A DNA stretch of 64,000 nt from the NCBI RefSeq assembly GCF_008195825.1, contig NZ_CP043329.1, positions 1,674,001-1,738,000 of the forward strand. Reading direction: 5' to 3'. The translations under genes were made by a program, and so were the position numbers. How positions within the stretch are numbered: position 1 is the first letter of the stretch; every line of letters begins with the position of its first letter. Shown here piece after piece: positions 37,915-38,211 of the stretch. The notes under the pieces were generated by a model. The model was not told the origin of the DNA, did not search any database, and worked only from the letters and a program-made list of their open reading frames with translations. The stretch is from Pedobacter aquae. GTDB taxonomy: Bacteria; Bacteroidota; Bacteroidia; Sphingobacteriales; Sphingobacteriaceae.

Positions 37915-38015
37915 ATTTATAAAGAAGTGGTGAGAGAATAGGCTCTAAGACCCACTGGCAACCTCACAAAGATTGTGAAAGGTGCCAAATCCTACCCCGA
38001 AAGGGAAATATAAAT
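37915..38015 (+). ncRNA. SAM-I (S box) riboswitch
   Basis: All four helices can be traced. P1 is ATTTATA (37915-37921) with TATAAAT (38009-38015). P2 contains AGTGG with CCACT and GAGAG with CTCT, and a G-A kink region. P3 is built from ACCT with AGGT and CAC with GTG. P4 is CCC-GAAA-GGG-like (near 37995-38005). The conserved core segments C-T-G-G-C-A-A-C-C and G-G-T-G-C-C-A-A-A-T-C-C-T match the SAM-I consensus. SAM binding should lower expression of metY and metX. No terminator stem follows, so control may act on translation or through the leader frame. Confidence 0.92.
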
Positions 38016-38025
38016 ATTTAAAGAC

Positions 38026-38142
38026 ATGAAAAATTTAAAATTCTTCTTACATCAAACTTATTTCCTACTAAAAGGAAATCAAAATTCTTATGTTTTACAA
38101 TTTGCTGATGCAAGCTGTAGCATGCGTTGTTATATGTGCTAA
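38026..38142 (+). CDS. Short leader open reading frame with Cys/Met-rich end, 38 residues
   Basis: An ATG 10 bases after the riboswitch opens a frame of 38 codons that stops 69 bases before metY. The N-terminus is hydrophobic and basic (M-K-N-L-K-F-F-L). The last residues, A-D-A-S-C-S-M-R-C-Y-M-C, hold three Cys and two Met in eight codons. That composition suits a leader peptide whose translation senses cysteine or methionine supply. The C-x3-C-x2-C spacing also matches an Fe-S ligand set, so a small metal-binding peptide is possible. I do not recognise a family. Confidence 0.5.
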   Translation: MKNLKFFLHQTYFLLKGNQNSYVLQFADASCSMRCYMC

Positions 38143-38211
38143 TTCTGGCACTTCTTTATCTCAACTAACAACAATTTTATTTTATTATTCACAATCTTAA
38201 CATATTACACA

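Follow-up and report, generated by a model that had tools for sequence, protein, structure and literature searches.

We find that the metYX genes of Pedobacter aquae are probably controlled by a two-stage sulfur sensor housed in a single 5' leader, in which a SAM-I riboswitch would act as a gate to a short open reading frame (ORF), the Cys and Met codons at the end of this ORF would form the second stage, and expression of the genes would be decided most likely via Rho. Comparison of this locus with its counterparts in related genomes supports the ORF, its position and its Cys/Met end, a hairpin which takes up part of the P1 5' strand of the riboswitch (the anti-P1 hairpin), a leader–gene gap with more C than G, and the lack of any enrichment of intrinsic terminators. 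Tentatively, we also suggest that such a serial gate may be widespread in the Bacteroidota, with a SAM-I riboswitch and its 5' switching partner admitting ribosomes to a poly-Cys leader that would poll charged tRNA-Cys/Met, so that direct homoserine sulfhydrylation would respond in AND fashion, to low SAM combined with low Cys/Met.

The riboswitch, leader frame and metYX in P. aquae

The window we analysed is a 64 kb stretch of the P. aquae genome, and the sole above-threshold Rfam match in it is the SAM-I riboswitch RF00162 (79.7 bits compared with a gathering score of 44.4, E 3.9e-17, with positions 1–108 of the covariance model matched), which bears out the riboswitch described in an earlier note made from this sequence alone. 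The same note had described a 38-codon frame behind the riboswitch with metY starting 69 nt past its stop, and this layout is also confirmed, with the ATG of the frame 9 nt after the aptamer, CSMRCYMC as the last eight residues, the stop codon at 38140–38142, and the metY ATG 69 nt further on (the features of the locus are listed in Table 1). It should be noted that the metX product lies below the TIGR01392 cut-off (362.6 vs 500) and that the true start of metX is probably the ATG at 39547, which matches relatives that begin MSIKKFQ. The same-strand gene upstream (36670–37797) encodes another Cys/Met-metabolism PLP enzyme (PF01053).

Table 1. Features of the metYX leader region, with positions given in the numbering of the window.
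Feature	Position	Strand	Basis
Promoter-like element TTTG-N21-TATATTTG	37832–37864	+	Sequence match to presumed Bacteroidota -33/-7 consensus
Predicted anti-P1 hairpin AAATCAA/TTGATTT + CCTT/AAGG	37889–37918	+	MFE folds, swap test, pair counts
P0 5' strand GUCUU, possible P1 extension	37909–37913	+	Sequence reading; swap test
SAM-I riboswitch aptamer RF00162	37914–38016	+	Covariance-model match
P0 3' strand AAGAC, adjoining leader AUG on its 5' side	38021–38025	+	Sequence reading; swap test
Leader peptide ORF MKNLKFFLHQTYFLLKGNQNSYVLQFADASCSMRCYMC, 38 codons	38026–38142	+	Conserved position and Cys/Met end
Proposed sensor codons TGT AGC ATG CGT TGT TAT ATG TGC	38116–38139	+	Composition, pN/pS
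Stop-region hairpin GTTGTTA/TAACAAC enclosing GTGCT/GGCAC	38126–38172	+	Predicted fold
Leader–metY gap, G 2.9%, C 21.7%, candidate Rho loading zone	38143–38211	+	Composition
metY, O-acetylhomoserine aminocarboxypropyltransferase	38212–39516	+	TIGR01326 687.6 bits, cut-off 495.1
metX, homoserine O-acetyltransferase	39535–40602	+	NF001209 332.6 bits, cut-off 331

The end of the leader is not a pure Cys run but contains three Cys and two Met in its last eight residues, and ends of this kind are rare in the host genome: when defined as at least three Cys and at least five Cys plus Met within the last eight residues, they are found in only two of the 3103 ATG frames of 15–60 codons in 464 kb, and the leader is one of these two. 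No further poly-Cys leaders were found when 30 of the 41 TGY3-TRA places in the host genome were read (two had a short ATG ORF, both within longer open frames), and of the 80 TGY4-TAA places in 60 relatives, the 30 read were mostly in other frames. A frame overlapping the leader (38090–38200) was dropped as a candidate second leader, as it has only 13 codons in L019 and enters metY in L023 and L025. We note that in the latter two loci the metY frame is open upstream across the leader region, and automatic annotation could start metY some 35 codons early.

Distribution of the leader amongst the Bacteroidota

The short frame that the earlier note suggested might be looked for between SAM-I riboswitches and metY/metX in relatives is conserved, with an ORF starting 5–15 nt after P1 in 97 of 98 nonredundant metY/metX-type SAM-I loci (this pool takes in L135, L136 and L054, in which the gene behind the leader is redoxin-like or homoserine dehydrogenase-like; in the first two the riboswitch is ~1.1 kb upstream of metY). 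These leaders have a median length of 37 codons (range 13–63, 97 loci) and common ends include CCMCCCMC, CICMCCCC, SRMCMCCCCC and CCCCACCC. Two or more Cys are present in the last 12 residues in 81 of the 98 loci compared with 0 of 40 other SAM-I loci judged by the same rule, and within the 98, at least one, three and four Cys are found in 93, 73 and 64 loci, respectively.

A census which started from the riboswitch instead gave a similar picture. This returned 96 SAM-I matches in 54 of 60 genomes, with some weak matches lost to the search filters, and included 33 loci before metY/metX (one of them preceding a homoserine dehydrogenase-like gene), of which 32 have an ATG frame no more than 15 nt from the aptamer and 29 have at least two tail Cys. 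Only one of the 63 other SAM-I loci (43 metH and 20 other or unclassified) has a Cys-rich leader, and the difference between 29/33 and 1/63 gives a Fisher p-value of 3.8e-19, although p-values throughout treat loci as independent and are optimistic because the loci are related. The census rule considers only the first ATG frame within 60 nt, and L015, which was counted as an other, has a Cys-rich frame 132 nt after P1. In the one positive locus amongst the others, L278, the SAM-I riboswitch (587–694) is followed by a frame of 27 codons with the end INFC, after which comes a gene that is cysH-like by eye.

Of the best 80 of at least 575 matches in a MetY profile search, 72 have SAM-I upstream of metY, and genera with this arrangement include Pedobacter, Mucilaginibacter, Sphingobacterium, Hymenobacter, Pontibacter, Rufibacter, Adhaeribacter, Algoriphagus, Chryseolinea, Haliscomenobacter and Spirosoma. 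The frame, its start position and mostly also the Cys/Met end are kept from the Sphingobacteriaceae into the Cytophagales and Saprospiraceae-type lineages. The leader was also seen in L158, L150 and L281, which are titled Saprospiraceae and Haliscomenobacter and include another family of the class (G037, with the end TCCCCCC). Eight MetY loci lack a match to RF00162, and L174 alone of these has a Cys/Met-rich frame upstream; the other seven have no upstream frame with three or more end Cys, two of them having less than 125 nt of upstream DNA. In L174, MNIKQHQNSVKMHAMFHSMCMCCMYMCM is found upstream of metY, at -429 and -202, and may be a riboswitch-free Cys/Met leader.

The exceptions fall mainly within two genera, as the 17 of 98 loci with fewer than two tail Cys comprise nine from Sphingobacterium, five from Algoriphagus, G001, G026 and the leaderless G035. 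Sphingobacterium has 12 loci in all, nine of them amongst these 17 (the leader ends RMR in seven of the 12 and PTC in three), while the six Algoriphagus leaders have 0–2 tail Cys, with A40 the one with two. G035 (L018) lacks the leader altogether and has the metY ATG 10 nt after P1, in the usual position of the leader ATG. Four metY/X loci outside the 98 include three with at least two tail Cys and one, G028, with a single Cys. Together these provide a resource of about 100 loci (98 pooled plus four more) with natural variants lacking the leader (G035) or most of the Cys (Algoriphagus and Sphingobacterium).

Short Cys-rich ORFs were also noticed, by eye, before SusC/TonB-receptor-like genes in L225 (at ~825, MKLKFTPFLLPYKSYPNNKIMPCCCC, 54 nt before the gene), on the minus strand of L067 (at ~2125, MKNNQLINKQPMCCCCC, 78 nt before) and in L015 (132–225 nt after the riboswitch, MKKPDEQKLKISTVPNCKTIRMCMELCCSS, 125 nt before), with only the last sitting directly behind an RF00162 match. 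Cys leaders may control sulfur uptake loci as well.

The SAM-I switch and access to the leader start codon

A start codon no more than 15 nt from the aptamer has been taken to mark a directly translational riboswitch, and for SAM-I the ribosome site has been placed in the 3' side of P1 (PMC2258182). The leader ATG lies within this distance, both in the window and in the 97 loci described above, and metY, which begins 195 nt after P1, does not.

In the window, a hairpin predicted 5' of the aptamer (from MFE folds) pairs with the P1 5' strand, as its 3' arm overlaps that strand. This anti-P1 hairpin is predicted in 87 of 101 metY-type loci (three duplicates included) compared with 11 of 29 metH-type loci, with a mean predicted fold of -10.7 and -4.7 kcal/mol, respectively, and is absent from all eight Hymenobacter loci. 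Cognate arms are predicted to pair better than arms swapped between loci in the metY-type (p 5.5e-13, n=80) but not in the metH-type (p 0.84, n=18). RNAalifold returned no structure for the upstream alignment of 85 of 105 loci (near-identical rows removed), and pairs were therefore counted on a structure named from the consensus, towards which the count leans: 77.8% of the cells in these 85 rows are paired, compared with a mean of 70.0 and a maximum of 72.8 for shuffles and 25–43% for slid versions. Two-sided changes numbered 59 against 24–54 in the slid versions, which nearly reach the same count, so it is the pairing percentage that carries this test. The possible P0 extension of P1 shows a weaker signal than the anti-P1 hairpin in the swap test (metY-type p 1.4e-5, with the cognate arms ahead in 62 of 89; metH-type 0.55, n=19) and is missing from the minimum-energy fold of the window when P1 is forced.

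Promoter-like elements, matched to what we take to be the Bacteroidota -33/-7 consensus, are present in 53 of the 98 metY-type loci, and since 52 of these sit 27–61 nt before P1, the anti-P1 hairpin can mostly be transcribed. The metH-type loci provide one element in 29, which is 16 nt before P1. In the window, the transcript would begin a few nt past the promoter-like element and upstream of the anti-P1 hairpin.

The predicted median cost of forcing P1 to form is 3.2 kcal/mol (window 4.7). With P1 forced, the predicted unpaired probability near the leader AUG drops from 0.60 to 0.38, with a fall in 91 of 97 loci (0.70 to 0.52 in the window), in part because P1 itself sits in the stretch measured. 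From these predictions, the SAM-I riboswitch, which by its sequence is presumed to bind SAM, appears to gate translation of the leader in many Bacteroidota of soil and water. The position taken by metY itself in G035 suggests that opening of the leader start is the ON direction for SAM, and the two layers look to be coupled in series, since a SAM-bound P1 would cover the leader AUG.

From the leader to metYX, and related systems

The earlier note had claimed that no terminator stem lies between the leader and metY, and in this it was mistaken, as a weak terminator-like stem, GTGCTAATTCTGGCAC-TTCTTTATCT (38136–38151), overlaps the last Cys codon and the stop. Intrinsic terminators are nevertheless not enriched between leader and gene (8 of 100 loci, compared with a mean of 4.55 and a maximum of 8 in shuffles), and we rejected intrinsic termination as a shared mechanism because this number is within the shuffle range. 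Of the features of a classical attenuator, putative regulatory codons near the stop are found in 81 of 98 loci and an intrinsic terminator in 8 of 100. The region following the leader is mildly structured (mean z -1.44 in 82 loci, 50 below -1 and one above 1; the window's stop-region fold has a z of -0.83 which is not significant alone), and covariation is seen for a hairpin whose 5' arm sits at the leader stop (p 8.5e-6, n=82). Two other arm pairs gave p 0.14 and 0.075, and pairing of the Cys-codon stretch (the last 30 nt of the ORF) with a downstream arm gave p 0.073. We do not claim that last pairing or the classical codon-arm/antiterminator switch that it would form part of, and support at the level of the family is limited to the hairpin starting near the stop.

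In 95 of 96 loci, C outnumbers G in the gap between leader and gene (means of 22% and 12%, respectively), a bias also seen, more weakly, in metH leaders (20 of 28). Of 176 intergenic 70-mers from the host genome, one is at least as C-rich and G-poor as the window gap, though this may be the leader–metY gap itself because the sample included the window, and three reach its value of C minus G. Given the C-rich and G-poor gap, the lack of enriched terminators and the presence of a rho gene in the genome, Rho would be the likeliest executor downstream of the leader. As separate observations, a number of Pedobacter loci (including L117, L129, L131, L137, L062 and L115) have an AUCUUCC-N(about 25)-GGAAGG block after the leader stop followed by a short hairpin ending UACG or AUACG, and the Cyclobacteriaceae-type loci L124, L132, L140 and L141 have CUGCC-NN-GUGACRGG in common after the stop; these blocks look like lineage-specific RNA elements.

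The mechanism we propose is as follows. Without SAM, the upstream hairpin would keep the P1 5' strand occupied, so that the P1 3' strand and the bases ahead of the leader AUG stay free and ribosomes can start the leader, and with SAM, P1 (plus P0 in part of the lineages) would cover the leader initiation region and shut the leader. Ribosomes admitted to the leader would decode the run of Cys (and Met) codons at its end, and when charged tRNA-Cys or tRNA-Met is scarce, a slow ribosome would cover the stop-proximal hairpin together with the first part of the gap, letting RNA polymerase reach metYX. Where the ribosome is free-running or absent, the gap would be exposed, most likely to Rho. One point against the full model is that stalling on the Cys codons would leave part of the gap uncovered by the ribosome. 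The earlier note had proposed two-layer control of this kind, and its leader-peptide layer is well supported by the conserved frame and the tail pN/pS given below, while we infer its other part, that tRNA-Cys or tRNA-Met is the signal, along with the direction of the Cys effect.

Derepression on Cys shortage is our first choice of direction, by analogy with amino-acid leaders (PMC8632094, PMC1262725, PMC4633059, PMC13236596). The same anatomy would allow translational coupling of the opposite sign, in which full translation of the leader is needed for metYX, either to keep Rho off or for reinitiation, and Cys shortage lowers metYX and spares sulfide for cysteine synthesis. We regard this main rival as unlikely, though it has a precedent in the M. 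tuberculosis ppe2 leader, the translation of which is reported as essential for the downstream gene (PMC11260477), and both G035 and Algoriphagus lack the Cys run but have kept the riboswitch and the start position. However, leader-to-gene gaps of 47–327 nt (with one 13 nt overlap in the Algoriphagus locus L161) do not favour reinitiation, and a Cys run beside a stop-proximal hairpin resembles derepressing attenuators.

A sensor role for the Cys run, as in the two-stage model, is consistent with the coding constraint on the leader. Cysteine accounts for 408 of the 1164 residues (35%) in the last 12 positions of the pooled leaders compared with 42 of the 2453 residues (2%) before them, and as both Cys codons are in use in the tail (TGT 251, TGC 157), the residue is kept more than the codon. 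In 16 ungapped, non-overlapping pairs, the last 10 codons have a pN/pS of 0.30 (26.3 synonymous and 41.7 nonsynonymous differences) and those upstream one of 0.61 (87.5 and 187.5), and selection is therefore strongest at the leader end and weak elsewhere. This was the comparison proposed in the earlier note, for which frame-neutral change would have spoken against the leader, and the change seen is not of that kind. A reading in which SAM-I simply blocks leader translation so that Rho terminates, with the Cys run a weak add-on or relic with no sensor role, is improbable: Algoriphagus and Sphingobacterium loci with little or no Cys run do keep the riboswitch, start position and ORF, but this share of tail Cys across many genera, with pN/pS low there too, is hard to account for unless these codons are under selection. 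The pattern of constraint is also as expected for a leader peptide more than for a folded micropeptide, and the metal-binding micropeptide offered as an alternative in the earlier note, or a redox-binding one, is highly improbable, as despite the high Cys content and the C-x3-C-x2-C of the window, the number and spacing of Cys vary (CCCCC, CMCYC, CACCCC, RMRMCCC; by eye), the codons before the last 10 are weakly constrained, none of the four leaders tested has a match in Pfam or NCBIfam, and the frame is bound to one riboswitch–gene context.

If the two-stage model is true, the metYX leader would work as a naturally occurring logic gate. One RNA sensor would decide whether a second sensor, based on translation, can be reached, and the SAM pool would thereby be tied to the cysteine (or methionine) pool where methionine synthesis begins. 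The model further suggests that riboswitches may act first on short, unannotated ORFs lying behind them.

We know of little work on leader-peptide control in Bacteroidota, and a literature search which covered largely titles and the openings of abstracts, short of most subscription papers, found no SAM-I/Cys leader in this phylum. The components are known singly, and within the reach of that search the serial combination had no earlier description in the Bacteroidota. Clues to leader-peptide attenuation before amino-acid operons have been noted in Flavobacterium (PMC9723704), and leader-like sORFs are mentioned in B. thetaiotaomicron (PMC7366714).

Amongst Cys leaders, the mycobacterial polycysteine sORFs (Canestrari 2020, via PMC9094748, PMC4633059 and PMC13236596; predicted earlier in PMC1262725) are similar in being short ORFs with a Cys run beside the stop, as the metYX leaders also have, placed before sulfur genes with no obvious terminators, and Rho was suggested for these in the 2005 paper (PMC1262725). 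They differ in being located on leaderless mRNAs of cys operons, with no riboswitch mentioned in these accounts, while the leader ATG of the window stands behind a riboswitch and about 160 nt past the end of the promoter-like element, from which transcription is predicted to start. The Rhodobacterales uORFC-8-2 before cysS also has tandem Cys codons, for which ribosome-mediated attenuation has been proposed (PMC8632094), but has an intrinsic terminator with a U run and cysS as its target, and the account makes no mention of a riboswitch.

Amongst riboswitches, the Xanthomonas SAM-I riboswitch also binds uncharged initiator tRNA. It is similar in that met genes are controlled at translation and a further input comes from tRNA, but there the tRNA binds the platform RNA and no leader peptide is mentioned (PMC7270179). 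The M. tuberculosis B12 riboswitches of metE and ppe2 have translated uORFs, one of them required for its gene, so that riboswitch and uORF translation interact within one leader as proposed here, though the ligand is B12, the system actinobacterial, and an amino-acid codon run goes unmentioned in the description (PMC11260477). An Mbox riboswitch regulates the small upstream ORF rv1805A of M. tuberculosis pe20 through a translational platform, and Rho termination affects the operon (PMC12810186). This resembles what is proposed for metYX, but in that report the ligand is Mg2+, the phylum is another, the uORF is a conserved protein with no sensor-codon run described, and Rho has been studied in the pe20 system where for metYX we infer it.
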